Shown piece after piece: positions 24,195 to 64,000 of a DNA stretch of 64,000 bases; the stretch's first letter is position 1, and each line of letters opens with the position of its first letter. Under the pieces are notes generated by a model. That model was not told where the DNA came from. It worked only from the letters and a program-made list of their open reading frames with translations, and made no database searches. Source of the stretch: Lathyrus oleraceus (Eukaryota; Streptophyta; Magnoliopsida; Fabales; Fabaceae). A program made the position numbers and the translations under genes. Where the stretch lies: assembly GCF_024323335.1 (NCBI RefSeq), contig NC_066585.1:186550184-186614183 (forward strand), written 5' to 3'.

Positions 24195-24304
24195 CTCTAT
24201 TCTGAAAACCCAAACAAACTGAAACAATGAGTACTGATAGGGTTACGCAACACCTATACCGTACAGGGGAAACAGAATAACTACGACTCGACTCGACCGA
24301 CTAT

Positions 24305-24316: not shown

Positions 24317-24320
24317 CTAA

Positions 24321-26437
24321 TGTAACACCCTTCTAAATACCCCAAAATATTTAATTAAAATAATAACATATCAATCAGAGTAATTATGCCCCGAAGGGTG
24401 TCACACAATCATTTCACAACAATTATCAAAATATCCTGTCATGCTCATTTATTAAATCAAAATAAGACTCTTTTGCATAATTCGCAGCGGGTATAAAACA
24501 TCGACATTCAAATCATGTACTACATTACATGTAAAGTTGAATCCACAACTAAATTAAAACATAGTCAAACATTCCCTCCCGATGTTACATCTACCAGAGC
24601 ACGACCCACTAAGGACGACACTAGACTCCATAGCACTAGCTTCTACTCAACTCACTGCTCGTTACCTGAAAAATAGTTGTAAGGGTGAGTTCCTCAATCA
24701 ATATAATAAGCATTATAGAACAACATGTAATGCTAAGTAAATAACACATCAATTCACCCTAATTAGACTACGCACTCAGCAACGACAATATCCGTTCAAA
24801 ACATCATATTCAACAGTAACATATAGCATATGTATAATCTCAACCATACTCAACATCAACAACACAACACACAACACACATATAATACTGGAATACATCC
24901 ATTCATATTATATGCCATACATTCATTATGAAATGAGACTCCACACATGCGGTACCGACTATTCTTGAACATACAGTTCAAGCTCACCGATCAAATCCAG
25001 ATGCGGCTACTAAGCTCACTAGTCCCACTCATTTGAGATCTAATGACTCACTCACCAATTCCTCACCATGGGAATTAGCTACAGCCCCGAAGGCTAGACT
25101 ATGCACACTAATCATCTAGCATGCAAACATCAACAACAAATCCACAATGATTCACTCACTAATTCCTCACCATGGGAATTAGCTACAGCCCCAAAGGCTA
25201 GAATATGCATGCTAATCACCTAGCAATGCAACAACGACAGCAACAATTCAATAATAGACATAAGCTCACACTCTAAGCCATAAAACAGTCTATTCACAAA
25301 TGCATACATAACTGATACATTCACAGCATCATGCTTATCATCACACATCATTAATACATTTTATCACAAAAGCATATCACATCATGCCACATAACCAAAT
25401 ACAGTATTAGCACATTCTACTAATACCTATACTACTCAAAACAACGGGAAATGATCCCTACAACATCATACCTCAGCTAAGTACATCACTCAGCCTAAAC
25501 AACCAAAAACTGCACAACAACCGCACAGGAAAATCACAATTTTGCCCATACGCGTATTGCCTATGCCCATACGCGTATTGCCCACGCCTGACCAAATCCA
25601 TACGCGTACTGCCCACTCTCATACGCGTATTGCGCATTTCCTCGCCCAACTCATACGCGTATCACCTGTCTCATACGCGTATGCTACGCGTAACAATCTC
25701 CCATTACGCGTACCAACAGAGACCAATTTACGTTCAAAATATCATCTTTTTCACCCATACGCGTAAGGCCTCCTCCATACGCGTACCAGCCATCTCATAC
25801 GCGTATTGCCTAGTGCCATACGCATATGACCAGAAACCAGAACTCCCAGATCTGCAATGGCTTTCTCTGCTACGAGATCTATCCAATCCCACCTTCCACA
25901 GTCCAATTTTCACACATAATTCCTTCCTATTGTCTAACACAAAACAGATCCTATTCGATTCCACAAAGTCTAACATTTCCACATCTAATTCCTACGAATT
26001 TCCCTCAATTATAACTCATTTTCGTTCGTCCCAAAGGTTCACAAATTCATCATGCATCAATCTAATCAGAGGTAAAACAATGGTCTATCACTACCCATGA
26101 CATATTATCACATAATACCCGTTAATCGATGATAAACCCCCCTTACCTGAGTTAATCCAGCAATCTCTGATCTCCAAGCTTTTCCTCTTCTCTTGCTCTG
26201 CCTTTTTGCCCTTTTTCCACTTTCAACCGCTTCTCTGTGTTCTCCTTTTCACGTGCAACCCTTTTTACCAAAAATGGGACTTTTTATTATTCCAACTTAT
26301 TTTATTCCAAATAAATAATTATCCCAATAATTATTATTCCAAAATAATAATAATAATAATTCAATTATCTAATTAAATTAATAAACATATTATTAACTTA
26401 ATTTAAATAATTATTATATTATTATCGGGGTGTTACA
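24321..26437 (-). repeat. C1 5' LTR, 2117 bp
   Basis: Matches 17665-19781 with about five transitions. It carries the same palindrome array at 25548-25827. It contains the promoter for the element's transcript, although I cannot fix a TATA box with confidence in its AT-rich U3. Confidence 0.95.
25548..25827. repeat. TACGCGTA paired-palindrome array, second copy
   Basis: Same 12 motifs and spacings as 18892-19171, shifted by exactly 6656 bp. It lies in the 5' LTR, between about 610 and 890 bp from the LTR start in element sense, so it is probably in the transcribed leader or just upstream of it. Confidence 0.9.
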
Positions 26438-26442
26438 AAGCC
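26438..26442. other. Target-site duplication AAGCC, right copy of C1
   Basis: Second copy of the 5-bp duplication made by C1 insertion. Confidence 0.95.
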
Positions 26443-26812
26443 CACACAAGTGGTTCTATAAATAGAACCCCTTGGGTAGAAGCATTGTCACTCCACTCAG
26501 ACTGAAATTCAAGTAGAGACTTGGAATTTCGTTTCCCTCTCTCTCTCACTCAAAGCCTTCATTCATAACAGCTAGCACTGCGATTGAAGGAATCCGTTCG
26601 TGTGGACTGAGTAGAGACGTTGTCATCGTTCAATGTTCGTGATCGCCCCGTGGATTTGTATCCAAGGTTTTGATCATTGCAAGAGATCTGCACCAAAGGT
26701 CTGAATCGCCACAAGAGGTAACGATTCTATCACTGATCATGCCCATTCGTCAGGATCACTAAATGGAGAAATTTTTAAATTCCGCTACGCCTTGGATGGC
26801 AATTCTCCTTCA
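26443..26812 (+). repeat. Copia 5' LTR, second part (370 bp)
   Basis: Continues the LTR after the C1 insertion and ends ...CTTCA just before the primer site. It contains the TATA box and the likely start of transcription, now cut off from the upstream U3 by 8.8 kb of C1. Confidence 0.95.
26457..26464 (+). promoter_or_regulatory. TATA box of copia 5' LTR
   Basis: TATAAATA, with an exact counterpart at 32759-32766 in the 3' LTR. C1 inserted only 19 bp upstream of it. Confidence 0.8.
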
Positions 26813-26813
26813 G

Positions 26814-26825
26814 TGGTATCAGAGC
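26814..26825 (+). other. Copia primer-binding site, initiator-Met tRNA
   Basis: TGGTATCAGAGC one base after the LTR end. It is complementary to the 3' end of initiator-Met tRNA and is the minus-strand primer site. Confidence 0.95.
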
Positions 26826-28596
26826 CACTTACGAAACCATGAATCTGATAGCTGTTTTTGTTCTGTAATAATATGATTAAAGACAGAATGAATCAAAGAT
26901 TAAATTGAGATCGATCAAGTTACATATATATGATATATGTAATCCTGATGCAAAATACATTATATATGATATAGTGTTCTCGTTTCGTTCATTCAAACAT
27001 TCAAAGATTGTTTTCCTTTGAGCGATCAATGGTCGTTTGCTTCTTGATCCGACATTAGTATGGTGAAGCAATGACGTGTTGATCAATCATACTGAATTAA
27101 CAATCGAGATGTGTTTGACGGTCTGAAATTGGTGCATCAGGGTTAGTGACGGCACAAGGGTTGTGTTGTCAGAGAGTTATGCGATTGGGGTTTGATTGGA
27201 CAAGAGTTGTGCTCTCTAAACACTTTTTGGAACAGTGTTAACCGGTTAATGCACATGGTTAACCGGTTAACGAAATACGAAATAAAAATTTTGAGTTTTT
27301 TCAACAGTGTTAACTGGTTAACGCATTTGGTTAACCGGTTAACGCAAGGCGGAAAACAGTTTTCCAAGACATTTTCAAACAGTGTTAACCGGTTAACGCA
27401 TTTGGTTAACCGGTTAACGCAAGGCAGAAAACAATTTTTTTCAGATTTCAAACAGTGTTAACCGGTTAACGCATATGGTTAACCGGTTAACGCAAGGAAA
27501 AATTCACCCGTTCGGCTAACTCAGTGCTTTAAAAGTATCAAGTGTTGATACGAAAAGCGACATCGATTTTAAATGAATTTTTCATTAAAATGTGGTGATC
27601 GATCGTCGAGATTTAATTTGATTTTAATTAATTAAAGGAATTAATAATAATAATAATAAAGTGTTTATTATTGTCTTGTGGTGATCGGTTATGGCCTTAG
27701 TTTTCCTTTATTCTGCTTTGGGTTTTTTTAAATACGACCTGCGTATCGTGCCTCTCTCTTAATCTCCCAAATGTAACTTCTTTTCTCATCTCACTCCCTC
27801 GTATGTAAAACGAGTTTCTTTTATGTAATGTAATGGTATGAAGAAAGCAAAGAAGTCAGTGCCAAAGGAGGACAACCTTGAAGATCTTTCTTGGAGAAGC
27901 TTAGATCGTTGTTAGGTTAGCTTAGGTTCTCTCATTGGCTTGGGAGAACAATTGCGCTAGGGGCCATAACTGTTTCATTGTGTTTGTATGTATGTTGATG
28001 CATGTGAATGTATGTTGATGCATGTGAGAGACGGTTTATATGATAAACAAGCCGGTGAGATCAGAAAGATGCAATTCCCTCAAATTAAATATTAAGTTTA
28101 TGCTTTCCAAGTTTTAACACTCATCAAGACTAGTAATGGATAATGTAGGTTTCGCCTACGTGAGGTGCATGATCTATATATTAGTAAGGTGCGATGGGAT
28201 AATTGTAATATCCAACTGTTAAAACAATGGGTCAAACTTAATTAAACAAATTATAATAAGATTATATATATGTTTAGAAGCAAGAGTTGGGAATGATCCA
28301 TATGATGGATTGGAATAAGGAGTTATTCACCCAACTGAAATTTTCAAGAGTTGTATGAGATACAATTGGAAGGAGTTCCTACCTAAATAACCTAGTTTTG
28401 TGTAATCCGCCTACGCGGACTTAGAACGAAGTGAAATATGGATCTCGACCCACTAGAAAATCTTCCAACAGGATTTTCCGAATCAAATGATGAGGGTCAT
28501 TTGTTTTGAATAAAATAGTGGGAGCATATTTAATTAAAGGCCTAATTAAATATGTCAATGATACTTATATTTTCATTAATCCTTGTGTAGATTACC
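26826..28596 (+). other. Copia 5' leader, 1.8 kb, non-coding
   Basis: Long untranslated leader between primer site and gag. It contains the GTTAACCGGTTAAC array (27237-27491). Two overlapping open frames on opposite strands at 27143-27461 (repeated VNRLT peptides) only mirror this array. The rest is AT-rich and shows no gene. Confidence 0.8.
27237..27491. repeat. Four-unit paired-palindrome array (GTTAACCGGTTAAC) in copia leader
   Basis: Palindromes start at 27237/27258, 27309/27330, 27384/27405 and 27457/27478. Every pair is 21 bp apart and units repeat at 72, 75 and 73 bp. Each unit reads CAGT-palindrome-7-nt loop (GCACATG, GCATTTG, GCATTTG, GCATATG)-palindrome. The two 14-mers in a pair are mutually complementary, allowing a 14-bp stem with a 7-nt loop. 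The 14-mer holds two inverted GGTTAA boxes, the core of plant GT (trihelix) sites. Variants: T for C at the central CpG of the 27309 copy, and a terminal T in the first. Confidence 0.92.
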
Positions 28597-29487
28597 ATGA
28601 CAGCAAACACCTCTAACAACATCCTGCGATCAATCCTTGATAAGGAAAAATTGTCTGGGACAAATTTTCTGGATTGGCACCGAAACCTGAGGATTGTCCT
28701 CAAACATGATAAAAAGCTGTATGTCTTGGAGACACCTGTTCCTGAAGAGGAACCTCCTAGTTCTGCACCTAAGGCAGAAAAAGATGCTTATAAGAAGCAT
28801 GTCGATGATGCCAATGAAACTGCTTGTCTCATGCTAGCTACCATGAACTCAGAATTGCAAAAGCAACATGAGAACATGTCAGCGTTCGATATGATCGAAC
28901 ACCTGAAGATGCTCTATCAAGAGCAAGCAAGGCATGAGAGGTTTGAAGTTTTAAAAGCCCTCTTTCAAGGCAAGTTAGCTGAGGGAGCCCCTGTAGGTCC
29001 CCATGTACTTAAGATGATTGGGTATGTGGAAAACCTTGAGAGATTGGGTTTTCCCCTCGAAAAGGAACTCGCGGCTGATTTGATCTTGCAATCGTTGCCA
29101 GATAGTTTCAGTCAATTTGTCCTAAATTTCAATATGATTGATATGGACAAATCTCTTCCTGAACTACTCGTCATGTTAAGAACTGCCGAGCAGAATCTGA
29201 AGTCAAAAGGGAAGTCCATTCTGATGATCGGAAATGGAAAGAGACAGAACAAAAGGCCCACTAAGCAGGGTGATAAAGGGAAAGGCAAGGAAGTTGCCAA
29301 ACCCAAACCCACCGTTGCTTCTTTAAAGCCTAATGGAGGCATAGCAAAAGAGGGCACCTGCTTCGATTGCGGTAAGACCGGACACTGGAAGAGGAACTGC
29401 CCAAAGTACCTGGAAGATAAGAAGAATGGAGTAGAGACTTCAACTTCAGGTATTTTTGTTATTAATTTATCTACTTCTGCATCATGA
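28597..29487 (+). CDS. Copia gag with one zinc knuckle
   Basis: Encodes the capsid-nucleocapsid protein that packages the element RNA. 296 codons from ATG (MTANTSNNIL) to TGA at 29485-29487. The N-terminal half shows the copia gag pattern (LSGTNFLDWHRNLRIVL, residues about 19-35). A single CCHC knuckle, CFDCGKTGHWKRNC, lies near residues 256-269. The TGA stands just before the protease domain and the same frame continues beyond it. The stop therefore probably replaced a tryptophan codon of a once continuous gag-pol frame. The gag part itself is intact and could still be translated. Confidence 0.88.
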   Translation: MTANTSNNILRSILDKEKLSGTNFLDWHRNLRIVLKHDKKLYVLETPVPEEEPPSSAPKAEKDAYKKHVDDANETACLMLATMNSELQKQHENMSAFDMIEHLKMLYQEQARHERFEVLKALFQGKLAEGAPVGPHVLKMIGYVENLERLGFPLEKELAADLILQSLPDSFSQFVLNFNMIDMDKSLPELLVMLRTAEQNLKSKGKSILMIGNGKRQNKRPTKQGDKGKGKEVAKPKPTVASLKPNGGIAKEGTCFDCGKTGHWKRNCPKYLEDKKNGVETSTSGIFVINLSTSAS

Positions 29488-31731
29488 GTATTAGATACTA
29501 GATGCGGTTCTCACATTTGTACAAATGTGCAGGGACTAAAAAGGAGTAGAAAATTGGCAAAAGGTGAAGTCGACCTACGAGTTGGCTATGGAGCAAAGGT
29601 TGCTGCTTTAGCCGTAGGAACTTATGTATTGACTTTACCTAGTGGTTTAATAATTCAGTTAGAGAACTGTTATTATGTACCTGCAATTAGCGGGAATATT
29701 AATTCCATTGCTTGTTTGGACAAGTTTGGTTTTTCATTTATAATAAAGAACAATTGTTGCTCAATTTATTTGAATGATATATTCTATGCTACTGCACAAG
29801 TGAACAATGGACTATATGTCATTGATTTTGAAATGTCTATTTATAACATTAATACTAAAAGGATGAAACCTAATGAGTTAAATCCAACTTACCTTTGGCA
29901 TTGTCGATTAGGCCACATAAATGAGAAACACATTTCCAAACTCCATAAAGATGGACTGTTGGACTCTTTTGATTATGAATCATATGAGGCATGCAGATCT
30001 TGTTTAATTGGAAAGATGACAAAGTCTCCATTCACAGGAAAAGGTGAAAGAGATAATGATCTTTTGGCCCTCATACATACTGATGTATGTGGACCACTGA
30101 ACATGCCAGCCAGAGGAGGTTTTCAGTACTTCATCACATTTACTGATGATTTCAGTAGATACGGTTATGTGTATTTAATGAAACACAAATCATATTCCTT
30201 TGAAGAGTTCAAGGAATTCAAGAATGAAGTACAAAACCAACTAGGTAAGAATATTAAAACTCTTTGATCAGATTGAGGTGGTGAGTATTTAAGCCTAGAG
30301 TTTGATGACCATCTAAAAGAGTGTGGGATCCTATCCCAACTCACTCCTCCTGGAACACCCCAATGGGATGGTGTATCTGAGAGAAGAAATCGAACCCTGT
30401 TATACATGGTCCGATCCATGATGAGTCACGTCGATCTTCCAAACTCCATTTGCGGACATGCACTATTGACAACAGCTTACACACTTAACCGTGTTCCATC
30501 CAAAAGGTTAAGAAGACACCATATGAGATATGGAGTGGTAAGAAACCATATATGTCTTACATGAAGATTTGGGGTTGCGAAGTTTATGTGAAACGACAAA
30601 TTTCAACTAAGCTTGAGCCCAAATCTGACAAATGCTTATTTGTGGGGTATCCTAAAGAAACAAGAGGGTATTACTTCTACAATCCTTCTGACGGCAAAGT
30701 GTTTGTTGCTCGAACTGGAGTTTTCCTGGAAAGGGATTTTATTTCCAAAGGAACCAGTGGGAGGAAAGTAGAGCTTGAAGAAATTCAAGAATCACAAAGC
30801 ATCGATACACCTATGGAGGAATTAGAGCAGGAAACATAAGTAGTTATGTAAGAGCAACCTGCTCAAGTAGAACAAGACCAGCGTAGGTCAGGCAGGATAC
30901 GTCACCTACCTGTGATATATGGATATCTGATCAAGGTGATGTATTACTCATGGATCAAGATGAGTCTGTGACCTACTCATGGAATCTTCGTTTTGATGAA
31001 ACAGTAAAACAGTATGGATTCATCAAGAACAAAGATGAGCCTTGTGTCTACAAGAAGGTTAGTGGGAGCATGATCGTATTCCTGGTATTATATGTAGATG
31101 ACATATTACTCATTGGAAACGATATCCCTACCCTGCAACAAGTAAAGTCTTGGTTGGGGAAATGCTTTTCTATGAAGGACCTAGGTGAAGCAGCCTATAT
31201 ATTAGGAATCAGAATCCATAGAGATAGATCACAAAACTGCTTGGCCTAAGTCAGAATACATACATAGACAAAGTGCTGAGACGCTTTAATATGCATGATT
31301 CAAATGGTTATGTGTTTTGCTTAAATGGTGGCACTGTGAGCTTGAAAAGTTCAAAGCAAGATACAATTGCTGATTCTACAATCGAGGCCGAGTATATTGC
31401 TGCCTCAAGTGCAGCAAAGGAAGCTATTTGGATCAGGAAGTTCATTAGTGAACTTGGCATAGTCCCTAGCGTTGTGGATCCCATTGGTCTCTATTATGAT
31501 AACAATGGTGCTATCGCACAAGCTAAGGAGCCTAGATCTCACCAACGATCCAAACACATCCTCAGGCGTTATCATCTCATTCGAGAGATAATAGATAGAG
31601 GAGATGTGAAAATATGTAAAGTACCTACACTTGACAATATTGCTGACCCACTGAGAAAGCCTCTTGCGCAGCAGAAGCATGATGGCCATACTAGATCAAT
31701 GGGCATAAGGGGTGTGCCTGATTGGCTCTAG
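29488..31731 (+). pseudogene. Copia pol remnant: protease, integrase, partial RT, partial RNase H
   Basis: The frame continues from gag with the protease motif, which reads LDTRCGSH where DTG is expected, so the active-site Gly is lost. Integrase follows: finger HCRLGHINEKH...CRSCLIGK near 29900-30010, D in HTDVCGPL, a degraded DNA-binding block with TGA at 30265-30267 and 30274-30276, and a SERRNRTL block near 30390. A frameshift lies near 30510 and a new frame (30552-30839) carries the integrase tail. At about 30975 the sequence jumps to the late RT, which has YVDDILLIGND near 31090, so the first catalytic block is deleted. Near 31305 it jumps again into RNase H (DSTIEAEYIAAS, DNNGAIAQAKEP). 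No active enzyme can be made. Confidence 0.9.
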
Positions 31732-31735
31732 TGCT

Positions 31736-31745
31736 AGTGGGAGAT
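31736..31745 (+). other. Copia polypurine tract
   Basis: AGTGGGAGAT immediately before the 3' LTR start at 31746. Plus-strand primer site. Confidence 0.85.
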
Positions 31746-33113
31746 TGTTGGTGTAAGCCCTAGAGGCCAATACTTTTAGTACTTGTATCGAATTATTTAT
31801 TAATAATAAAAGGCATTTTCTTTATTATGGTTGATTAATAAAGTCCCTGGAATAGATAGTCCGTTTAATGTATTAAGTGTGACTTAATCATGAGAACACA
31901 TTAAACATAAGGACACTATTCTTAAAGTATCCGTAGTCGAGCTTTAGTGTGAAGTGGGATAACATTAAAGCATTAAGACTATTATGTTTGTAGACTGATG
32001 ATCATATCTCATGGATCATGGATAAAGAGTTATCAAGTCTTAAACATAGGTATGAATATTAGGAGTAATATTTATACCGGATTGACCCGCTATGAGAATA
32101 CTATATAGAAAGTTATGCAAAGTGTCATAAGTTATTCTCATGGTGATAATAGTGTATACCACTCTTAGACCTGAAACCACTATGGATCCTAGATGTAGAG
32201 TCGAGTGCTTTATTGCTGATCCAATGTTGTCCGTAACTGGATAACCATAAAGACAGTTGATGGGTACTCCACAAAGCATGCTGAGGGACATGAGTGTCCT
32301 AGATGGAATTTGCCCATCTTGCGTAACAGGATAAATGTCTATGGGCCCAATATTGAACTGGACAAGGGTGACACGGTCTATACCTTGTGTTCAATATAGA
32401 CATAAGGGCAAAGGGGTAATTATACACATAATTATTATCACAGGAGGTTTTGTCAGATCACATGACATTTTCGTGACTTGGGTAGCAGTGATGTGTTGCT
32501 AGATACCGCTCACTGTTTATTATGTTAAATGCGTGATTTAATATAATTGCCAACGTCGCGAAAACCTACAGGGTCACACACAAAGGACGGATTGATGAGA
32601 AATAGAGTAACTAAGGAACACCGTAAGGTACGATGCACTTAAGTGGGAGACGAAATATGGTAAGATACCAAATACTTAAGTGATTTTGGCATATTATGAG
32701 ATATGGGCCAAAATACACTTAAGTGGGCTTTTTAGCTTGAAGCCCACACAAGTGGTTCTATAAATAGAACCCCTTGGGTAGAAGCATTGTCACTCCACTC
32801 AGACTGAAATTCAAGTAGAGACTTGGAATTTCGTTTCCCTCTCTCTCTCACTCAAAGCCTTCATTCATAACAGCTAGCACTGCGATTGAAGGAATCCGTT
32901 CGTGTGGACTGAGTAGAGACGTTGTCATCGTTCAACGTTCGTGATCGCCTGTGGATTTGTATCCAAGGTTTTGATCGTTGCAAGAGATCTACACCAAAGG
33001 TCTGAATCGCCACAAGAGGTAACGATTCTATCACTGATCATGCCCATTCGTAAGGATCACTAAATGGAGAAATTTTTAAATTCCGCTGCACCTTGGATGG
33101 CAATTCTCCTTCA
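31746..33113 (+). repeat. Copia 3' LTR, 1368 bp
   Basis: Starts TGTTGG and ends CTTCA, followed by ACATG. It is uninterrupted and shows the pre-insertion site of C1. TATAAATA lies at 32759-32766. This LTR could still drive transcription into Ogre A sequence on the right. Confidence 0.95.
32759..32766 (+). promoter_or_regulatory. TATA box of copia 3' LTR
   Basis: TATAAATA in the same context as 26457-26464. Here the upstream U3 is intact. Confidence 0.75.
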
Positions 33114-33420: not shown

Positions 33421-36400
33421 TGTAGCGGGGTATTCTTTACCATTGGAGATATTGACTAAATCCAAGGTAAACCATACAAGTCGAGTCTCCACCGCACTTC
33501 TATTTATCCAAAGGACTGGTTAGAAAGCGAACAAAAACCTAAAAGTTTTATCGAATCAAAAACTAGTAAAAATGTCAGAGATCGGGGTAAGGGGGTTGGT
33601 TATGCGATGGGAAGGTTTTAAGCACCCAAAACATCCTAGGTACTCCTAGGGATCCCTTTTCATACTTGTTGTAAGGTTGGTATTTTGTGAAAATTTATTT
33701 GTGCAAACATGATTGAAGAGATGAGAAGAGAATATACAAATTGTTTACATTTTGTGCTTGGATGGATAAACCCATTGCCTACGTACCATCTTAAAAAAGA
33801 TTAGGATCAAAACCTCGTAGTTCGGGGTAAAAATCTCAAAAATGAGTTGGTGAATTGATTGGTCCAAAAGCCTTAAGGTCTTTTGTTATCCAAGGGAGAA
33901 AACTCATCCTAACCACAAATCCACCATGTGAGGATAGCTTCAACATGCTAGTGAGGGGTTAACCCTATAATAAGCATGGAAGACTCATTGTCCATCACTA
34001 AGGATATAGGTGAGTATTACATCTACCTCAAGAATAACTCAAACCTAATAGCTAAAGGTTATGGAAAGTTTTTGATTAAGAAAGTGGCCATTGAAACCAC
34101 AAAAGTATTTGGATGAGTTATATTTACCAATGAAAATTATTTACAAAATATGGTCAAAGTTGATTTAAAGATTCAATTCAAAATAAGTGTTATGAGAAAA
34201 AGCTTGAAAATCAAAAGCATAAGGCTTAGGTTTCTAATGTTTGAAAAGAAGCGTTAAATGTTTGCACAAAAGTTTTGGCTTGGGTTAGAGTGGAGGGAAG
34301 AAGAAGAATGGCTAAAGTCCTAATCATACAAGAGATGAGGGATAAGAAACAAGACCACAAATGGAGTTCCTATCTTGAGATCATATTGATGATCCAAGTA
34401 GCTCCCATCCTTTGGAATATGCAAGCAAAATAATTGTAAGCTCAAGAAATCAACATAATCAAACAAGCTCTTAGAAGATCCCCAATGTCTCTTGTATCTT
34501 CCACTTTGGGTGAACATGGGAATGGTTCTTCAATTTGAGCTCACATAGGATCCCCTAGCATAAAAACACACACATCAAAAAGTTCTATGAAGTAAATCAA
34601 GAATGGATAAGAGTGGGTTTAGAGACTTGGTTCTTCTAATCCATCTTCAACATTAAGGTCCTTTTACTCCAATTTGCATAGGGAATATCCTAGGAACTAA
34701 GTCCATTTGTCCATTTCTTTGCATTTGGTCCACAACAAACAAAACAAAGCACAAGCACAATAATATATACACAATTATGTGCTCAAGTGAGCAAAAGGAA
34801 AATTACATTAACATAAACATGTGCTCAAATGAGCAAAGGGGAAAAAGCAAATGAATAATATGTGCAAGAATAGTAAATTGCATAAATGTAAAGAGCAAAA
34901 AGTAAATGTTAATGGTTAAGGGTTAGTGTTAATAGTTAGTGTGCCATAAGGCAAATTTAGCGCTATGTTAAGCAATCGTAATTGGACTTATGTAGAATTC
35001 ACAACTATCTGAGGCCGGTCAATAATAATGTAGGCAACAACACAAGTTAGAGGTCTTGATTAGTGAATCAAACTCCAACAACTTGCCATGCCAAAAAGAA
35101 GATGAGAAATGATTTTGTATTGATTTAGGTTTTTTGCATGATTTAGGAAGCAACCTATCCTTAATGTAAAGCCATTCACTTGATCCATGATCAAGATGAA
35201 TTAGATTTGAATTAAGGAAGATTAAACCTTCATGTATCAATGCTAACCACCAATCCTTAACTCATTGATCAAAAAGAAAAAGAGAAAAGAAGAAGAAGAT
35301 GAAGAATTAAAATGCATTAATAGAAATGGAATGAGATAATCAACAAGCATTGACCAAAGATAGAGAAGATCAAGGTCAAACAATAGAAAACAGAAGTAAA
35401 ATGAAGATTAGAAGTCAAGAAACAACTTCTAATATTAAAATAAAACTTGAATTAAAATAATAAAGAAAGGTCAAACTTCAAACTCACTTCAAATCAACTT
35501 TGAAAAGTCCAAGTGAATTATCCCAAGTTCAACATGGTCAAACAAAGTTTGACAAAAAATTTCAGCAATTTTAAAAGTCAGAAACTATTTTAAATCGATT
35601 TAAAATGCATAAAAATAACCTAATTGAATTAAAATCTCAAATAAATCTCAAATCAATTAATAAATTGATGAGAATATTTTTCATAGATCTATCATCATTC
35701 AAAGAGGTTGGAAAAATATTTTTGTATTTTTTGGATATCAAAAACTATTTAAAATGAATTAAAAATAACCAGAAAAGGGAAAATTACTAAAAAATATCAA
35801 ATGATAAAATAAAAAATATTAAAAATCATTTTTAGAAAGTAGAAATTAAAAGGAGAAGAATGAAATTGGTCCCATAATTTTTGGACCAATAATGAGAGAG
35901 ATATGAATTTTCAAAATGAAATGGAATTAAAATAATAAAAGGAAAATAAAATCAGAAAATAGAAAAAGAGAAAAAGCGTGAGCCATTGGATGGAGATTCA
36001 TTAATTGACGTGGATCATCACACGACTTAGGAGCGCGCGTTCACCATACACCTTGGTCAACTGAAACACACCAAGCCTCTAAAGAAGTCATAACATTGGA
36101 TGCATGAGATTCAATCAGGAAATAGAGATGGACGCTCCTGATTGAATTTGGAGACCAGATGGTGGACAACACCACCGTCTTCTCCAGCCAAACTCCAGCC
36201 ACCTCAAAAATTGCAGAAATTAAAATGGCAACCAAAATGCACGATCCAGGCATCAATCGAGAGTTGGGGTGATGTACATCACCCCTGTACCACTCAATTC
36301 CATTCTAGATCTCTATATTGAGAGAAATCAGAAGTGGAAATTCTGTGGTGTTCATATGAACTTCATGATTTTCAAAAATTGAAAGCATAGCAATGTTGCC

Positions 36401-48221: not shown

Positions 48222-49265
48222 TGTAGCGGTGTATTCGTTACCATTGGAGATATTGACTAAATCCAAGATAAATCATACAAAGTCGAGTCGCCATCGCACT
48301 TCTATTTATCCAAAGGAATGGTTAGAAAGCGAACAAAAACCTAAAAAGTTTTACAAATAAAACTAGTAAAAGAAGGTCAGAGATCTGGGTAAGGGGGTTA
48401 GTTATACAATGGGAAGGTGTTAGGCACCTAATGCATCCTAGGTACTCCTAGGGAGCCTTTTTCACGCTTGTTGCAAAGGTTATTGTTTATGAAAATTATT
48501 TGTGCAAACATGATTGAAGAGATGAGAAAAGAATATACAAGTTTATTTACATTTTGTGTTTGGATGGATGAACCCATTGCCTACGTACCCTCTTATGAAA
48601 AGATTAGGATCAAAACCTCGTAGTTCGGGTAAAAAATTTCAAAACAAATGAGTGGATTGATTGGTCCAAAAGCCTTAAGGTCTTTTGTTATCAAAGGGAG
48701 AAAACTCAACCTGAAAAAACCACAAGTCCACCATGTGATGACAGCTTCGACATGCTAGTGAGGGGTTAGCCCTATAATAAGCATGGAAGGCTTACAATCC
48801 AATCACTAAGGACAAAGGTGAGCATTATATCTACCACAAAGATAACTCAAACCTAATAGCAAAAGGTTATGAAAAATTTGATTAAGAAGTGATCATTGAA
48901 ACCACAAAAGAAGCATTTGAGTGGGTTGTGTTTACCAATTAGAAGTATGTACAAAAATGGTCAAAGTTGACTTAAAGATTCAATTCACAATGAGTGTTAT
49001 GAAAAGAAAGTTTGAAAATCAAAAGCCTAAGGCTTAGGTTTCTAATGTTGGAAACAAGTCAAATGTTTGCACAAAAATTGTTTTTGGTTTGAGGTTAGGA
49101 TGGAGAAGAAAAGGTTAAAGGTGAGAGGTAAGGGATGAAACACATCAGGAGTTCCTCTCTTGAGATCATATGTAGATGATCCAAGTAGATTCCTTTGGAA
49201 TAGACAAGCACAAGGTAAAAGCAATCACAACAAGGCTCAAAAGAGATCAAACAAAAGGAAACAAG

Positions 49266-49455
49266 ATGCCAATATATGGACTTACACCCAACTCCTGTCA
49301 ACAAAACGGAAACAGAATGCCAATATATGGACTTAAATCTGACTCCTAACAACAAAACGGAAACAGAATGCCAATATATGGACTTAGATCCGACTCCAAA
49401 CAAACAAATGGAAACAGAATGCCAATATATGGACTTAGATCCGACTCCAAACCAC
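49266..49455. repeat. 51-bp minisatellite in Ogre B LTR, about 3.7 copies
   Basis: Copies start at 49266, 49317, 49368 and 49419 with ATGCCAATATATGGACTTA, exactly 51 bp apart. The last is partial. Because 51 is a multiple of three, the array stays open in several frames on both strands (137 codons on minus, 70 and 61 on plus). These repetitive peptides are an artefact of the array. Confidence 0.93.
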
Positions 49456-52102
49456 AAACATGCATCAAAAGCAAACATGCAAAAGTAAACAATGCAAACA
49501 ATGATCACACACTATATACAAACAAGAGGCTTCAAACCAAGGGTGGGCTTTAGTCAAGAGGGGTCATATCAACCTCGACAAACAAGCCAAACTGTACAAA
49601 GGTAATTTGTAGCTCTTAACCACTAACATTGAGAGTTAGGGTGAAGCTGATCAAAGATGGAGATGAGGATGAGACCTCATGCTCTTAACCCTGGCCTGGG
49701 TGAGCTCATGATAAAGAAAGCGTGGGGATCTAGAAAGAGGGATCCTATTCCACTTGACAGACACTGGACAAAGATCTTGGGTGCATGTTCAGGAGCATCA
49801 GCACGTAGTGCGAGCATAATGAACGACTCACTGAATAACGGGGGATTGATTGCTAATCCCTTTTATTCGTCAATTGCCTCTTCACTTAGGAGGACTTATC
49901 AAGTAACATGGCTCACTTGGAGGTCTTTGGCACAAATGTAAACAATCACAAACAGAGCCTCTTAAGGAGAACTTCAGCCAAATACCTGCCAAAAAGGTGA
50001 CAGGACTTCCAGACTACATGGAGTAAGAGAATAGCTACCTAAGTGGTGTATCAACCACAATCCAAAGCTCAAGCAAGAGCTAAAAGCAAGCAACTAATGT
50101 ACCTGTACAAAAGCTAAACAGTTAATATCTCAGACAAACAATCAGAAAACAAACAGAGAAAACATCCAACTGTTACACAATTCAATGAGCAATGGTCAAG
50201 CATTCAAATGAAGCAATGAGCTCAACTCATCAACTCAAACTCATACAAAACACAAAGAAGTCAGAACACAATCCAATTTGCATCTCAAAAGGTGAGCAAC
50301 TCAACCATTAATGCTAAGTGTCCAAACCTGAAACACAAGTCAAGGTTAGTTCATGTACAAAACACTAGTGCAAAGACTAGGTTCAAAACCAAACCAAATG
50401 ATCAAAACAGAAGTCAATCTTTCACATATTGCACATTCAATCATTCAATAAAATTTCCTCAAAAGGACCAACATCAATGCACAAAGCAAGTAGCTCAAAT
50501 GATCAATGTAAAGCAAAGGCAAGCAAAGGTGCACAAAATGGACATCCAAATTAGAAAATCCAAATCAAAACAAAAAAGCATCCAATGGCCATGAAATTTT
50601 TTATGCAAGTTACTCATGTTATGAACAAGCAATGTACAAAAAATCAAATCCAGAAGAGCTCAAATGATAGGTGAACAAAAATGCAAAAATTGAATGCCAA
50701 AAATGTGACACAAATTGTCACACTACATCTTTATGTGTCAAAAACAATGAATACAAATGAGAAAAAATTCAAACCAGTGCTCAAAAATTCATATCACATG
50801 TGAAGATCAAGCATACAAAAATTCAGATCAATTGGATCAAGGATGAAGATTTCACAAAACAATGAATGTAACATGTCAATTTGGCATAAGGTTCAATCAA
50901 AAATTTTCAAATAAAAATCCAGAAACAAACAATTCATGAAAATAATCCTATAAAAAACTAGACATCAAAACAAGATTATGAAAAAAAATTGGAGTCAATT
51001 TGGAGCATTTTACTATTTCTTATGATTTTTTAAAGATGAACAAAATAATATGAAATATTAAAATGAAATGGAGGGAAATAAAATTTGAATTAAAATCAGG
51101 AATATTCATGACCATTGGATCAGGCGCGAAAACAAATCAAGCGGACCAGATTTGAACATGTAAAATGCAGAGTTTCATTAATACAGTCTGCGTGCCACTA
51201 AGCATTCAATATACACACATGGCAGGTCAAAGCAGCATGGACCAATCATTATCACACATAAGCGAACACATGGAAGCGCACATCAGCCAAATGAAACGAA
51301 GCGTTTCATTAATCCTAGTCACTAGCACATTCATCAGTCAAAGCAAATGTGGCATGGTCAAACAGATAACATCCAATGGAACGGACATGCAAGCGCCTAC
51401 ATCAGCATACACGGTGGACAAAACCCTAACAAACCAGACGACGGTAACAACCGTCTTCTCCGGCCATCCAGGCGGCGGAGATCAAATTTTTTTTTCCAGA
51501 AATGCATGGATTGTACATCATTCGAACCGTCTCTCATCATATATCTCAATTATCATATTAATTTCATCTGAATCATCATATATCGCACGGATCGAAGAGA
51601 AACATAATCACACTCAAAAATTCCAATTCATCATACAAACTCATTAATCATCCATTTTAAGATCTAAACATATCAGCATGCTCCTCTAAGCAGGATCTAC
51701 ACAATCATATCAAGAAAATAGCAAAATGAGAGGATCGAATTTTCACTTACTTGAAATGCAGTGCTAAAAAATCGTGCTCTCAAGCTCTCAAACTCTCCAG
51801 ATCTTCTTCCTGAACCTTGCTTTGAAGCTTTGTGCACAAAGAAGCAATTGAAAACACTCAAATCCAACTCAATTTCAGAACTCCATCTTCATGTTCATGC
51901 ACTCGATCTGCCTGAAAACTAGCTCAATTGTCCAAACCAAGGGATGAATCTTGCTCAGAATTCCACAAGGATCATGAATATGCAAAGAGATTGAAGGTTT
52001 GTATGAAGAAATTTGAATTTTCGAAGAGAGAGAATTTGGAGGGAATTTGGAGAATTTTGAGATTTGAATTCTGTTATTCTCTCAATTACAGTTAGGGTTT
52101 GC

Positions 52103-56233: not shown

Positions 56234-58168
56234 TGTAACACCCTTCTAAAATACCCCAAATATTTAATTTAAATAACAACATATATCAATCAGAGTAAAT
56301 ATGCAATTAAGGGTGTCACACAATTACTTCACACCATTCACCATGATAACTGTCATGCTCTTTTATTAATTCAAAACATAAAGCATTTGCACAATACGCA
56401 GCGGATAGAGCTTAAATCAATCATGCAAAACATGTAGCATATTACATGTAAACTGGTTCACAACCAACAATAAAACATTTAAAACATCCCATCCCGATGT
56501 TACATCTACCAGAGCATGACCCACTAAGGAACTACACTAGACTTCAAGCACTAGCTCCTACCCAATCACTGCTCGTTACCTGAAAAATAGTTGTAAGGGT
56601 GAGTTCCTCAATCGATATAATAAGCATTATAAAATATCATGCAATGTTAAGTAATTTAACACATTTCATCACCCTAATCATAGCACACATTCAGTAACGG
56701 CACATCAACTCAAACATCATACTCAACACCAACATAAAGCACACGTATAATCTCAATTCATGCTCAACACCAACACAAAACACACTTATAATATTGGAAT
56801 ACATCCATTCATATTATACGCCATACATACACTATGCAATGAGACTCCATGCATGCGGTACCGACTATTCGTGAACATATAGTTCAACTTCACCGACCAA
56901 ATCCAGGTACGGCTACCAAGCTCACTAGTCCCACTCATTTGAGACCTAGTGACTCACATCACTAATTCCTCACCATGGGAATTAGCTACCACCCCAAGGG
57001 CCATGCTATGCACGCTAATCACCTAGCATGCAACATCAACAACAGTCCAAAATGACTAACATCACTAATTCCTCACCATGGGAATTAGCTACCACCATAA
57101 AGGCCACATTATGCTATGCCAAATCACCTAGCATGCAACATCAACAACAATCCACAATGGACATATGCTCACACTCTAAGCCATAAAACAGTCCATCCAC
57201 AATTACATACATAATATATACATTCACAACATTATGCATATTTTCACACATCATCAGCATATTTATCACATAATTATATCATGTCATGCCAAATAATTCA
57301 GTCACAGTATTAGCACACTCTACTAATACCTATCCTACTCAAAACAACGAGAAATAATCCCTACTATATCACACACCGATATAGGCCAATCACCAATTTT
57401 GTTCACAACATTAAAATATTAATTTTTCACTTTTCCAACAGTGTTAACCGGTTAACGCCCTGGGTTAACCGGTTAACGCAGCACAGAACACGCTTTCTGG
57501 CAAAATTCAACAGTGTTAACCGGTTAACGCCCTGGGTTAACCGGTTAACGCAGACAGAACAGCAATATTTTCACAACCCACAACAGTGTTAACCGGTTAA
57601 CGCCCTGGGTTAACCGGTTAACGCAAGCAAAACAGCAATACCTCACAATTCCTAACAGTGTTAACCGGTTAACACCCTGGGTTAACCGGTTAATGCAAGA
57701 CAGAAAGCTGTTCCTGCGCTAACACGGAGCAGAATGCAGAATTCTCCGCATTTTCCGCCGTTGGAGGACTTCCGGACCTCCGATTCCGATTCCGTAAAAA
57801 GCTATACGTTCGGGAAATCACAACTCATACAAATACAGATTCAATTACAGTTTTCACATCATCTATTCATCACAATTTTTCAACATTCATAATCCAATTA
57901 GGGTCAAATCAACGGCTTATCACTACCCATTACATGTTAACCCATAATACCCATTAAACGACGATAAACCCCCCTTACCTGAGTTAATCCGGCAATCCTT
58001 TAGCCTCAAGCTCTTCTCTTCTCCAACCTTCTTCCTCTTGCTCTGCCTCTTTGCCCTTTTCCTCTTTTCAGCCGCTTCTCTGCTTTCACATGAAAACTCT
58101 TTTTACCAAAATGGAACTCTTTTTTCCTTATTTCCAACTTATATATATTTTCCAATAATTATTATTCC

Positions 58169-58199
<31 letters not shown>

Positions 58200-58287
58200 T
58201 TCCAATAATTCCAATTATTTAATTAAATTAATAAATATAATATTAACTTAAATTAAATAATTATCTTATTTTTATCGGGGTGTTACA
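56234..58287 (-). repeat. C2 3' LTR, 2054 bp
   Basis: Ends TGTAACA and TGTTACA. It is related to the C1 LTR on both sides but has a different central module (about 57370-57900). It contains an approximately 103-bp direct duplication (starts 56964 and 57067, each with AATTCCTCACCATGGGAATT), the GTTAACCGGTTAAC array and an ATA/ATT trinucleotide run near 58165-58200. Confidence 0.95.
57443..57694. repeat. Four-unit paired-palindrome array (GTTAACCGGTTAAC) in C2 LTR
   Basis: Palindromes start at 57443/57464, 57515/57536, 57588/57609 and 57660/57681. Each pair is exactly 21 bp apart and units repeat at 72, 73 and 72 bp. The 7-nt loops are GCCCTGG three times and ACCCTGG once. Flanks CAGT before and GCA after agree with the copia array at 27237-27491, as does the inter-unit text (GACAGAACAGCAA versus GGCAGAAAACAA). 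The last 14-mer ends in T. The matching array of the right LTR would begin near 64035, just outside the window. Confidence 0.92.
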
Positions 58288-58300
58288 ACTCTCCCCCACT
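58288..58300 (-). other. C2 polypurine tract
   Basis: Element-sense AGTGGGGGAGAGT directly before the 3' LTR, identical to C1. Confidence 0.9.
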
Positions 58301-58328: not shown

Positions 58329-61300
58329 TCAAGCGAATAACTCCGGATAAGACTCCTTCATCTGATTCTCAAGTTCCCAAGTCACATTGCCACCTGCTGG
58401 TCCTCCCCAAGCTACCTTTACCAAAACAATCTCTTTACCCCGCAACTGCTTCAACTCTCGATCCTCGATCCTCATAGGTGATGTTTCAACAGTCAGGTTA
58501 TCTCTCACCTGTACATCATCTACTTGGACAACATGCGACGGATCAGGAATGTACCTCCTCAACTGAGACACATGAAAAACCTCATGCAAATTCGCAAGTG
58601 ACGGCGGTAAAGCGATACGATAGGCTACCTTCCCTATCCTCTCCAAAATCTGATAAGGACCAATAAATCGAGGTGTCAACTTCTTCGACTTCAAAGCTCG
58701 ACCAACCCCAGTTATCGGAGTAACACGAAGAAACACATGATCTCCCTCTTGAAACTCAAGTGACTTCCTCCTCTTGTCGTGATAACTCTTCTGACGACTC
58801 TGAGCAATCCTCATCTTCTCCTGAATCATCTTAATCTTTTCCGTAGTTTGTTGAACAATCTCCGGTCCAACCACAACACTCTCACCGGACTCATACCAAC
58901 ATAAAGGCGTCCGACATCTCCTACCATACAAAGCTTCAAACGGTGCCATACCAATGCTCGAATGAAAACTATTGTTGTAGGTAAACTCAATCAAAGGCAA
59001 ATAACAATCCCAAGCACCTCCCTTTTCCAAAACACAAGCCCTCAAAAGATCCTCTAGTGACTGAATCGTCCTCTCAGTCTGACCATCAGTCTGCGGATGA
59101 TATGCAGAACTCAATCTCAGCTTAGTTCCCAAAGCCTTCTGCAAACCTTCCCAAAACTTCGATGTAAATCTAGGATCTCTGTCCGAAACAATACTCGACG
59201 GAATACCATGCAAACTTACAATCTTCTCGATATACAACTCGGCTAATCTCTCTAACGGATAATCCATTCTGATCGGAATGAAATGAGCCAATTTCGTCAA
59301 TCTATCAACAATCACCCAAATGGCTTCAAAATTCTTAATTGTTCTCGGTAAACCAGAAACAAAATCCATACTGATACTATCCCACTTCCACTCTGGAATA
59401 GCCAACGGTTGCATTAGCCCAGACGGCTTCTGATGCTCAATCTTTGACTTCTGACAAGTCAAACAAGAATAAACAAAACTCGCAATTTCTCTTTTCATTC
59501 CCGGCCACCAAAATAACTTCTTCAAATCATGATACATCTTCGTAGCCCCAGGATGAATACTCAGGCCACTACGATGTCCTTCCTCAAGAATACTCTTCTT
59601 AAGTTCGGTAACATCCGGAATACACACCCGATTACCAAATTTCAAAACACCATTCTCATCCACTCTGAATTCACCACCTTGACCTTGATTCACTAAAGTC
59701 AACTTATCAACCAAAAGTACTTCGGATTTCTGACCCTCTCTGATCTCATCCAGAATACCACTCGTTAACTTCAACATTCCCAATTTAACACTATTGTGAG
59801 TACTCTCACACACCAAACTCAAGTCTCTAAACTGCTCAATTAAATCCAATTCTTTAACCATTAACATAGACATATGCAATGATTTCCGACTCAATGCATC
59901 AGCCACTACGTTTGCTTTACCCGGATGGTAATTCAAACCAAAGTCATAATCCTTCAGAAACTCTAACCATCTCCTCTGTCTCATATTCAGCTCTTTCTGA
60001 TCAAACAAATACTTTAAACTCTTATGGTCACTGAAAACCTCAAATCTTGACCCGTACAAGTAATGCCTCCATAACTTCAGAACAAATACCACGGCTGCCA
60101 ACTCTAAATCGTGTGTCGGATAGTTCCTCTCATGAACCCTCAGTTGTCTCGAAGCATAAGCTATAACCTGCTTATTCTGCATCAACACACCACCCAAACC
60201 CAACAATGAAGCATCACAGTAAACCTCAAATGATTCTGATGGACTCGGTAATATCAGAATAGGAGCAGTAGTCAACCTTCTCTTTAACTCTTGGAAACCT
60301 TCTTCACATTTTGAGTCCCAAACAAACGCTTGCCCCTTTCTAGTCAACATCGTCAACGGTAACGCCAACTTAGAAAATCCCTCAATGAATTTCCTATAGT
60401 AACCAGCCAAACCAAGGAAACTTCGAATCTCGGCAACAGACTTCGGAGCTTCCCACTTAGACACCGCTTCTATCTTAGAAGGATCAACAGCAACACCACC
60501 TCTTGAAATCACATGACCAAGAAAACTAACCTCCTCTAACCAAAATTCACACTTGGATAGTTTAGCAAATAACTTCTTTTCTCGTAGAACTCCTAAAACC
60601 ACCCTCAAATGCTCAGCATGCTCTTCTTCAGATTTCAAATACACCAAAATATCATCAATAAACACCACAACAAACTGATCTAGGTACGGATGGAAAATCC
60701 TATTCATATACTCCATAAATACTCCAGGCGCATTAGTCACACCAAAAGGCATTACAGAATACTCATAATGTCCATACCTTGTTCTAAAAGCAGTCTTCTG
60801 AATATCCTCAGTTTTCACACGTATCTGATGATACCCAGATCTCAAATCTATTTTACTGAACACACTCGCACCAACCAACTGATCCATCAAATCATCAATC
60901 CTTGGCAAAGGATACCGATTCTTGATCGTCACTTTATTCAGTTGCCTGTAGTCCACACACAACCTCATAGTACCTTCTTTCTTCTTAACCAATAACACTG
61001 GTGCACCCCACGGTGACACACTCGGACGAATAAATTTCTTATCCAACAGATCTTCCAACTGACTCTTCAATTCAGTTAACTCAACAGCAGACATACGGTA
61101 CGGAGCCATCGACATCGGCCTAGTACCAGGTACCAAATCAATCGAGAACTCAACTTCACGCTCTGGCGGTAATTCATTCACTTCTTCTGGAAACACATCA
61201 GGAAAATCACACACCACAGCTAGATCGCAAATCACCAGTTTATCTTTAGCCTCCAAAGTCGCTAACAGCATAAACAACTCTGCCCCATCTACTACTGCCT

Positions 61301-62699
61301 CATTCACCTGCCTTGCTGATAGAAACAAACTCTTTCCTTCCTCAATCTCAGGAAATATCACAGTCTTATCAAAACAGTTGATAGAAACTCGGTTAAACAC
61401 CAACCAGTTCATACCCAAGATAACATCAATCTGCACTAATGGAAGACACACAAGGTCTATCCCAAAGTCTCTACCAAAAATACTCAAAGGACAATTCAAA
61501 CAAACTGAAGTAGTAGTCACTGAACCCTTCGCAGGAGTATCAATCACCATACTTCCATGCATCTCAGATATCTCTAACTTAAGTTTCACAGCACAATCCA
61601 AAGATATAAAGGAATGAGTAGCACCGGTGTCAATAATAGCTACAAGAGGAAAGCCATTAATATAACACGTACCTTGGATCAAACGATCATCTACAAAAGT
61701 CTCAGAACCCGATAAAGCGAAGACCTTGCCTCCCGACTGGTTCTCTTTCTTCGGCTTAGGACACTGTGGGCTAATATGACCCACCTCTCCACAGTTGAAA
61801 CAAGTCATAGTCTTCAACCGGCACTCTGCAGCCAAGTGACCACCTTTGCCACACTTGAAACACTTCTTCTCAGCACTGGTACACTCATGGAAACGATGTC
61901 CAGCCTGACCACATCTTTAACACTTAGCAGGAGCACTGGAGTCTCCCCCACTAGGTCTCCTCATCCCATTTTGTCTCTGGAAACCTTTGCCAACTGCATA
62001 CGGCTTCCCACGATCATTCTGATTCTTGCCTTTCCTATCAACCCTCTGCTGATAGCTCTCCGCTCTAGTTTTGGTATCCTGTTCAAAAATTCTGCAACAG
62101 TCAACCAAATCAGAAAACACTCTAATCCGCTGATACCCAATAGCCTGCTTGATCTCGGGACGTAACCCGTTCTCAAACTTCACACATTTTGAGAATTCCC
62201 CAGTAGCCTCATCATAGGGAGTGTAATACTTCGACAGCTCTGTGAACTTAGCAGCATACTCCGTAACAGACCGGTTGCCCTGCTTCAATTCCAAGAACTC
62301 TATCTCTTTCTTTCCTCTGACATCCTCTGGAAAGTACTTCCTCAGGAATCTCTCTCTGAACACAGCCCAAGTGATCTCAGTATTCCCAGCAGATTCCAAC
62401 TCAGTGCGGGTAGCAACCCACCAATCATCTGCTTCTTCTGACAGCATATGCGTACCGAACCTGACCTTCTGGTTCTCGACACACTCAGTCACTCGGAAGA
62501 TCCTCTCAATCTCCTTCAACCACTTCTGAGCGCCATCTGGATCGTATGCTCCCTTGAACATTGGAGGATTGTTCTTCTGGAACTCACTCAGTTGACGAGC
62601 AGCTCCCATTCCCACAACATTCAGATTTCCTCCAAGTACTCCAGCTAGCATACCCAGAGCCTGAGCAATCGCAGCATCGTCTCTACCTCTTCCAGCCAT
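58329..62699 (-). pseudogene. C2 gag-pol polyprotein, one in-frame TAA in the first zinc knuckle
   Basis: Same length (1456 codons plus stop) and domain order as C1: gag, three CCHC knuckles, protease (IIDTGATHS), RT (FIDDILVY), RNase H, integrase with D,D,E, and chromodomain-like end. The start MAGRGRD at 62699 has no in-frame Met just upstream. A TAA at 61919-61917 replaces the Tyr codon that follows the first Cys of knuckle one in C1 (TAC in C1). The same frame is open on both sides, so this is the only visible lesion. It gives a truncated gag of 260 residues without knuckles. The large downstream frame starts at an internal Met (61835) within knuckle two. Readthrough is possible but the position is not one expected for a programmed stop. 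Confidence 0.93.
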
Positions 62700-62825: not shown

Positions 62826-64000
62826 TGTAACACCCTTCTAAAATACCCCAAATATTTAATTTAAATAACAACATATATCAATCAGAGTAAATATGCAATT
62901 AAGGGTGTCACACAATTACTTCACACCATTCACCATGATAACTGTCATGCTCTTTTATTAATTCAAAACATAAAGCATTTGCACAATACGCAGCGGATAG
63001 AGCTTAAATCAATCATGCAAAACATGTAGCATATTACATGTAAACTGGTTCACAACCAACAATAAAACATTTAAAACATCCCATCCCGATGTTACATCTA
63101 CCAGAGCATGACCCACTAAGGAACTACACTAGACTTCAAGCACTAGCTCCTACCCAATCACTGCTCGTTACCTGAAAAATAGTTGTAAGGGTGAGTTCCT
63201 CAATCGATATAATAAGCATTATAAAATATCATGCAATGTTAAGTAATTTAACACATTTCATCACCCTAATCATAGCACACATTCAGTAACGGCACATCAA
63301 CTCAAACATCATACTCAACACCAACATAAAGCACACGTATAATCTCAATTCATGCTCAACACCAACACAAAACACACTTATAATATTGGAATACATCCAT
63401 TCATATTATACGCCATACATACACTATGCAATGAGACTCCATGCATGCGGTACCGACTATTCGTGAACATATAGTTCAACTTCACCGACCAAATCCAGGT
63501 ACGGCTACCAAGCTCACTAGTCCCACTCATTTGAGACCTAGTGACTCACATCACTAATTCCTCACCATGGGAATTAGCTACCACCCCAAGGGCCATGCTA
63601 TGCACGCTAATCACCTAGCATGCAACATCAACAACAGTCCAAAATGACTAACATCACTAATTCCTCACCATGGGAATTAGCTACCACCATAAAGGCCACA
63701 TTATGCTATGCCAAATCACCTAGCATGCAACATCAACAACAATCCACAATGGACATATGCTCACACTCTAAGCCATAAAACAGTCCATCCACAATTACAT
63801 ACATAATATATACATTCACAACATTATGCATATTTTCACACATCATCAGCATATTTATCACATAATTATATCATGTCATGCCAAATAATTCAGTCACAGT
63901 ATTAGCACACTCTACTAATACCTATCCTACTCAAAACAACGAGAAATAATCCCTACTATATCACACACCGATATAGGCCAATCACCAATTTTGTTCACAA
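62826..64000 (-). repeat. C2 5' LTR, 1175 bp visible
   Basis: Plus-strand start TGTAACACCC. It appears identical to 56234-57408 along the whole visible length. It runs off the window just before the palindrome array. Confidence 0.95.

Follow-up and report, generated by a model that had tools for sequence, protein, structure and literature searches.

Organization of the locus

The window, that is, the whole 64-kb stretch of DNA analysed here, carries LTR retrotransposons of the copia and gypsy types. The limits of the copia element were established by comparison of the window with itself: its 5' LTR is found in two parts (16667-17664 and 26438-26812) and its 3' LTR at 31746-33113. On the plus strand it carries a TATA-like motif, CTATAAATAG, in the 5' LTR (26457-26466, about 780 bp upstream of the module described below; a putative promoter element), a sequence resembling a primer-binding site (PBS), TGGTATCAGAGC, at 26813-26824, and a gag reading frame (Retrotran_gag_2) at 28591-29487. 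The region 16667-33113 is a nested insertion, with a gypsy element, hereafter the sister gypsy, within the copia 5' LTR, and the copia pol is broken into several short open stretches. The sister gypsy (17665-26438, minus strand) has its 3' LTR at 17665-19782 and its 5' LTR at 24321-26438, likewise delimited by self-comparison of the window.

The second gypsy of the window, C2, extends on the minus strand from 56234 to beyond 64000. Its 3' LTR (56234-58288) has the ends TGTAACA...TGTTACA when read on the minus strand, and its 5' LTR (62826-64000) is cut by the end of the window before its array. The PBS-like TGGTATCAGAGC of C2 (62810-62821, minus strand) is presumably that of tRNA-Met. The pol frame (58329-61916, minus strand) has the order protease, reverse transcriptase (RT), RNase H and integrase zinc domain. 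Gag, protease, RT, RNase H and integrase domains are present in both gypsy elements, all on the minus strand. Named protein relatives of the gypsy pol, among the 120 listed of 7908, include those of Trifolium, Vicia and Lathyrus oleraceus, and also of plants such as Solanum and Oryza; the scan of viral_contigs with the gypsy pol found no relative. The two LTRs of the sister gypsy are 99.76% identical, and the visible part of the C2 5' LTR is 100% identical to the 3' LTR over 1175 bp, so that both insertions look young.

Other repeats were also observed. Both gypsy LTRs contain a direct duplication of about 104 bp (18386-18587 and 56950-57159), outside the swapped block described below. About four tandem units of 51 bp, close to five helical turns, lie at 49250-49458 and lack the palindrome words, and a lone perfect palindrome of 20 bp, GGGGTGATGTACATCACCCC, is found at 36266-36285.

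A paired-palindrome module in the C2 LTR and the copia leader

The C2 3' LTR contains four paired units with eight copies of the word GTTAACCGGTTAAC, one of them mismatched (57443-57694, minus strand). Four paired units are also found in the copia leader, between the PBS and gag (27237-27491, plus strand). With up to three mismatches, the 14-mer GTTAACCGGTTAAC occurs at 18 places in the window, against 1.73 expected, and none of 100 shuffles reached 18; 16 of these places (13 exact, three with one mismatch) make up the two modules.

An earlier note on this DNA had described the module from the letters alone, and most of its description was borne out. The palindromes of all eight pairs, four in C2 and four in copia, are exactly 21 bp apart, and the units measure about 72 bp (steps of 72, 73 and 72 in gypsy; 72, 75 and 73 in copia). 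CAGT precedes all eight pairs as claimed, but GCA follows only seven, copia unit 1 having GAA. The claimed partial agreement of the text between the units also stands: with the palindromes removed, copia and gypsy spacers agree on the same strand at 18.9 of 31 bases, against 8.9 in the opposite orientation, and in 20,000 joint column permutations the mean was 8.8 and the largest value 14.9, none reaching that observed. This homology of the spacers upholds the common origin that the note had argued for. Since the gypsy genes lie on the minus strand and the copia gag on the plus strand, the module is, as had been noticed, inverted relative to transcription between the two elements.

According to the earlier note, copia and gypsy elements have no other LTR or leader homology, and self-comparison of the window (E up to 1e-10) gave zero copia-gypsy matches outside the module, the similarity ending about 20 bp or less from the edges of the arrays. 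The module in copia may be the remnant of a nested gypsy LTR, but the same comparison detected no further LTR sequence beside it.

The pair is not invariant elsewhere. Triples, which retain the 21-bp step, are found at loci L029 and L039, and single palindromes in peptides P0121 and P0123 and at locus L042. A peptide query for GTTAAC gave four matches among 2773 candidates, one gypsy-like and three copia-like. A coding role of the array was ruled out by the 73-bp units, which break the frame, and by stops in the frames.

Abundance and spacing in the host genome

The word GTTAACCGGTTAAC occurs exactly at 127,292 places in the 3.795-Gb host genome (1550 contigs), and the reversed-word control at 672. 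Exact pairs separated by a gap of 7 are found at 56,985 places (control, 0), with 55 exact pairs at gaps 0-6 and 671 at gaps 8-35; among the matches listed for the latter range, the commonest gap is 28 (2 x 21 bp) and gap 8 is rare. By subtraction, 34,477 exact pairs fall at gaps 36-38, which correspond to the distance between units. The base in the middle of the gap is A or T in 14,217 of the 56,985 exact gap-7 pairs, a feature typical of nearly all sampled copia and Sirevirus-like units (see below). The genome-wide check of spacing proposed in the earlier note thus revealed no random spacing of exact words. These counts, which cover exact words only, are dominated by the copying of elements and do not represent independent events; the uniform spacing therefore reflects shared ancestry in part. 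Decayed copies are under-represented because both searches and samples used exact words. In the copia family, the word is at its expected place beside 1,217 of 1,410 exact leader anchors. Outside the host genome, the GTTAAC pair was found 0 times in viral_contigs and 0 times in genome_contigs.

Other carriers of the module

The 16 GTTAAC loci sampled were taken from the places listed on contig C1, first 12 Mb. They comprise ten C2-type gypsy LTRs, five copia leaders (one of them, L029, rearranged) and one LTR of another family (L027). Two further places, L022 and L040/L041, are classified as Sirevirus-like from their polypurine tract (PPT) copies, the C-rich LTR end and the description of Bousios 2010 (PMC2829016): each has four copies of the GGGGGAG type, and the 3' end of the LTR is C-rich in L022. 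The linker holds one palindrome pair, ahead of the polypurine copies, and the LTR holds two, which form an inverted repeat with AACAGT outside (L022:7042-7852 and L040:445-1224). For one pol fragment of the Sirevirus-like copies, Pfam gave no match.

L027 and L045 were grouped as one LTR family, X, by their right flanks, which are 83-87% identical; their left flanks are only 56.9% identical. Family X is provisionally called gypsy-type from its TGTAACA...TGTTACA-like ends and the position of the cassette.

The module is thus present in gypsy LTRs, in the copia leader, in Sirevirus-like LTRs and linkers and in the LTR of family X. The two unrelated classes of the earlier note hold as carriers, but that description was too narrow. 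AACAGT precedes 31 of 44 gypsy units, 19 of 19 copia units and two of three Sirevirus-like units. In the last group AACAGT and some of the inner spacer match gypsy and copia, and the remainder does not. The text flanking the palindromes is strongly homologous among gypsy, copia and X, and less so in the Sirevirus-like copies.

Two words in one gypsy LTR slot

The C2 and sister LTRs differ in a block that does not align between them, though the sequences on both sides do. In C2 this block, which includes the array, lies at 57372-57878 (minus strand), and its sister counterpart at 18813-19389. In the same slot as GTTAACCGGTTAAC in C2, the sister 3' LTR carries an array of a different word, TACGCGTA, with 11 exact copies and one mismatched copy (18893-19170, minus strand); the same array is found in the sister 5' LTR (25549-25826, minus strand). 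This second word in the slot goes unmentioned in the earlier note.

The exact 14-mer TACTCAAAACAACG, which adjoins the block and is common to C2 and sister LTRs, was used as an anchor. It occurs at 5,518 places in the genome (reversed control, 50) and covers a subset of similar LTRs, L037 being the only sampled C2-type locus that has it. At the expected distance from it, GTTAACCGGTTAAC was found at 1,312 places and TACGCGTA at 3,986, and one or the other word lies beside 5,298 of the 5,518 exact-anchor LTRs (96%), a count in which an anchor may be counted twice and mutated words may be missed. Pairs of TACGCGTA with gaps of 2-32 number 95,552 genome-wide (control, 13). In C2/sister LTRs the slot is filled by either a GTTAACCGGTTAAC or a TACGCGTA array.

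The non-array part of the C2 cassette (57709-57878) contains an inverted GGAGG...CCTCC motif, also found in the X copies L027 and L044, which may be a second regulatory part.

A scan for ATACGCGTAT pairs matched two IMG/VR contigs, L001 and L002, with 58-59% G+C and two TACGCGTA sites each. The sequences around the palindrome pair, 21 bp apart, are alike in the two contigs (L001:2726-2756 and L002:229-259). This pair is possibly an ordinary operator, and the contigs were judged unrelated to the plant arrays.

Probable exchange of the cassette between families

The 168 nt beside the array are 85.7% identical between C2 and the family X copy L027 (X27). The flanks of these two copies are at or near background level: 49.5% identity on the left and 44.9% on the right, with 43.9 and 44.7% for one shuffle each. 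In C2-type copies, divergence is similar for the block and for the sides of the LTR (for example 84.8/87.6/84.2% for L031), so that slow evolution of the block alone is a poor explanation of what C2 and X27 share. The comparison of these few copies points to exchange as a good explanation. As a counterweight, the X27 block is about equally similar to C2 and to the other X copy (83.6%), which is itself 77.0% identical to C2.

The X cassette of L044/L045 has gaps of the copia type (GCATTTG, and TCATTTG in one unit) and copia-like tails. Of its three units in L044, two resemble copia units more closely (up to 42 and 46 of 57 bases) than gypsy units (at most 39 and 36); the maximum of the copia-gypsy baseline is 37 of 57. 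The third unit matches a copia unit best (43) but on average lies nearest to X27 (38.3), and its tail, next to the gypsy-type block, is gypsy-like. L044/L045 thus forms a bridge between the copia and gypsy modules, and would fit either direction of transfer. The exchanged cassette suggested earlier gains support both from these copia-like units and from the cassette common to C2 and L027. None of the findings speaks for a host-derived cassette, which the note had put forward as a possibility. An unrooted and poorly resolved tree of the units (85 columns) groups them by family, with the Sirevirus-like rows on long branches; this clustering fits transfer followed by local amplification.

Constraint, decay and helical phase

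Units were defined as two sites with up to three mismatches each, 21 bp apart. Four of 73 units were dropped from the constraint count as artefacts of triple palindromes, and one exact pair per array was set aside because the loci had been found by exact pairs. In the remaining palindromes, 12 of 1400 bases depart from the word, 11 of them by C>T or G>A, and identity across the far flanks is about 50%. In the sampled exact-word copies, the words and the 21-bp spacing are thus much more uniform than their surroundings. Two decayed copies were kept outside this count: the seven sites of L044 have 1, 0, 2, 1, 1, 1 and 1 mismatches, which affect six of the seven words and are not confined to C>T or G>A; the sites of L043 carry as many as three mismatches, and two of its spacings are 22 bp.

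The spacings of TACGCGTA in the sister array are 21, 31, 21, 32, 20, 11, 20, 53, 20, 20 and 21 bp (mean resultant 0.96 at 10.4 bp). A peptide query for this word gave 17 matches among 83 candidates. If each peptide motif is taken as TACGCGTA, the spacings decoded from these 17 related peptides are 11, 19-21, 30-33, 52-53 and 62, with a resultant of 0.90 over 138 of 140 spacings, those of 95 and 143 being excluded by a 70-bp cut. In six further TACGCGTA arrays among the matches listed, 52 of 60 spacings lie within 1.5 bp of whole 10.5-bp turns, the misses being six of 19, a single 28 and one or other of the values 33 and 54, which both deviate by exactly 1.5 bp; the resultants range from 0.66, for the array with the 28-bp spacing, to 0.97 at 10.4 bp. 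The distances between GTTAAC units range from 50 to 54. That the TACGCGTA spacings appear mostly to be whole helical turns is suggestive only: the arrays have a common descent and expand by tandem duplication, so the phasing is not independent evidence.

Comparison with known systems

Palindromic arrays are already known in Sireviruses: the accessible text of Bousios 2010 (PMC2829016) describes element-specific palindromic RM boxes in LTRs and linkers with no common binder identified, terms the RM motif Sirevirus-specific and absent from classic elements, and gives a CGG-CCG core signature for all but Tnd-1 of 13 elements. The arrays described here resemble them in having palindromic words with dyad symmetry, clustered in non-coding DNA in at least eight copies (eight in the C2 LTR, eight in the copia leader and 12 of the TACGCGTA type per sister LTR). 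L022, with six palindromes across the linker and one LTR, and L040/L041 share the LTR/linker layout, and L022 and L040 each have four PPT-like copies, multiple PPTs and a polyC-rich LTR 3' end being features of Sireviruses. The cluster starts about 320 bp after the PPT/LTR junction in L022, about 595 bp in C2 and about 610 bp in the sister LTR; the range given in that text for Sirevirus RM clusters is 200-400 bp.

There are also differences. The same module is found here in gypsy LTRs and in a copia leader, and C2 and the sister gypsy have RT before integrase, the gypsy order. The CGG...CCG order is absent from the words found here, AACCGGTT and TACGCGTA, as it is from Tnd-1, and the 21-bp pairing and the two-word slot are without counterpart in the accessible text of PMC2829016. 

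With regard to position, the same text places the Sirevirus RM cluster upstream of the LTR TATA box; the copia module lies downstream of the TATA-like box, and no clear TATA box was found in the C2 and sister gypsy LTRs.

Excerpts of PMC10760457 describe a maize palindrome, CACCGGAC...GTCCGGTG, in structured regions of Copia and Helitron elements. The likeness is that of one palindrome across superfamilies, but in those excerpts only the motif is shared, with neither homologous flanks nor a swapped LTR slot. The VANDAL transposons and their VANC proteins, as excerpted from PMC5735166, provide another parallel in motif arrays with rapid turnover between related transposons. The Drosophila Copia 5' UTR activator and Tnt1 box I are named in the accessible part of PMC2829016, and no plant retrotransposon paper with the words described here was found among the matches listed from the open-access literature.

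The Drosophila Copia activator and Tnt1 box I are symmetric cis-acting boxes in a leader or an LTR, and we know of no report of their sharing between superfamilies.

Possible function of the module

We lean, with no great margin of confidence, towards reading the module as a cassette of DNA-binding sites that acts in cis, is located in non-coding regions of the LTR retrotransposons of this genome and has been exchanged across families. Each palindrome would be bound by a hypothetical protein as a dimer, and two dimers, two helical turns apart, could bind cooperatively on one face of the DNA. The array might then tune transcription of the element, as an enhancer or as a site countering or attracting silencing. 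With a different word, the element would come under another DNA-binding protein, and the sharing of the cassette between C2 and X could have arisen by recombination or template switching. Candidate binders would be R2R3-MYB (YAACNG) or GT factors for the first word and a CAMTA-like protein (CGCG box) for the second.

The copia module, being downstream of the TATA-like box, is probably transcribed, and a role in RNA is therefore possible for it. Each pair, being an inverted repeat, could fold as a hairpin (stem of at least 14 bp, 7-nt loop); in the RNA the array would act in packaging, in dimerization or as a source of small RNAs. The predicted folds are far more stable than those of shuffled sequences (z of -11.1 for copia, -7.8 for C2 and -7.3 for the sister array), but any array of identical palindromes folds strongly. 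An excess of maize small RNAs on Sirevirus palindrome clusters is mentioned in an excerpt of PMC10760457, citing Bousios 2016. Such a role seems unlikely to us as the general explanation: the orientation is opposite in copia and gypsy, the units are inverted within the Sirevirus-like LTR, and the TACGCGTA arrays, spaced by 11 to 53 bp, do not form uniform hairpins.

We also doubt that the module is a minisatellite without function, neutral or selfish, whose palindromic repeat slips and converts easily and has spread between LTRs by hitch-hiking. The number of units does vary among arrays, satellite DNA is reported to come often from tandem repeats derived from retrotransposons (excerpts of PMC7004042), the copying of elements inflates the counts, and the old copies L043 and L044 decay. 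In the sampled exact-word arrays, however, the words and the 7-bp gap hardly vary while the unit drifts elsewhere. The words include CpG, for which rapid mutation is expected where it is methylated, and the occupancy of the slot in nearly all exact-anchor LTRs is difficult to reconcile with a passive repeat.

The arrays could, by analogy with VANC and VANDAL, be the target of an element-encoded or host protein that recognizes them and removes silencing, but we regard this as improbable. VANC target motifs are tandem repeats that differ strongly between related elements (excerpts of PMC5735166), and their rapid turnover resembles the two-word slot; VANDALs nevertheless encode a dedicated protein, whereas C2 and the sister gypsy contain no frame of at least 250 aa beyond gag-pol, and the word 'palindrome' occurs 0 times in the VANC paper (PMC5735166).

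Separate amplification, in each family, of sites for one host protein is very improbable; near-identical palindromes do occur in distant Sireviruses with very low homology (accessible text of PMC2829016), and convergence may still account for the Sirevirus link, but for gypsy, copia and X it is disfavoured by the homologous spacers outside the palindromes, the AACAGT that precedes most units and the non-array bases common to X27 and C2.

Significance

Copia and gypsy are usually regarded as separate lineages with private LTRs. Sharing of one homologous regulatory module between gypsy LTRs and a copia leader, probably extending to the LTRs of Sireviruses, would imply movement of regulatory sequence across superfamilies. 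In the open-access literature searched, the occurrence of the module in gypsy, copia and Sirevirus-like elements alike appears to be new, as do the two-word slot and the exchange of the cassette among LTR families.

The binding-site reading can be extended, tentatively and at less than even confidence, to a plug-in array traded between superfamilies, in which the sites would face one side of the helix, the word would select the host or element DNA-binding protein that drives or protects the element, and the slot could be refilled. Two words in one slot with a fixed spacing predict two binding proteins in a tetramer-like arrangement, and the control of these elements thereby becomes testable. 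If the traded array is real, families would share or change the 'key' as part of an arms race, and such genomes would become an enormous reservoir of potential binding sites for the host; in this one the exact word occurs 127,292 times.
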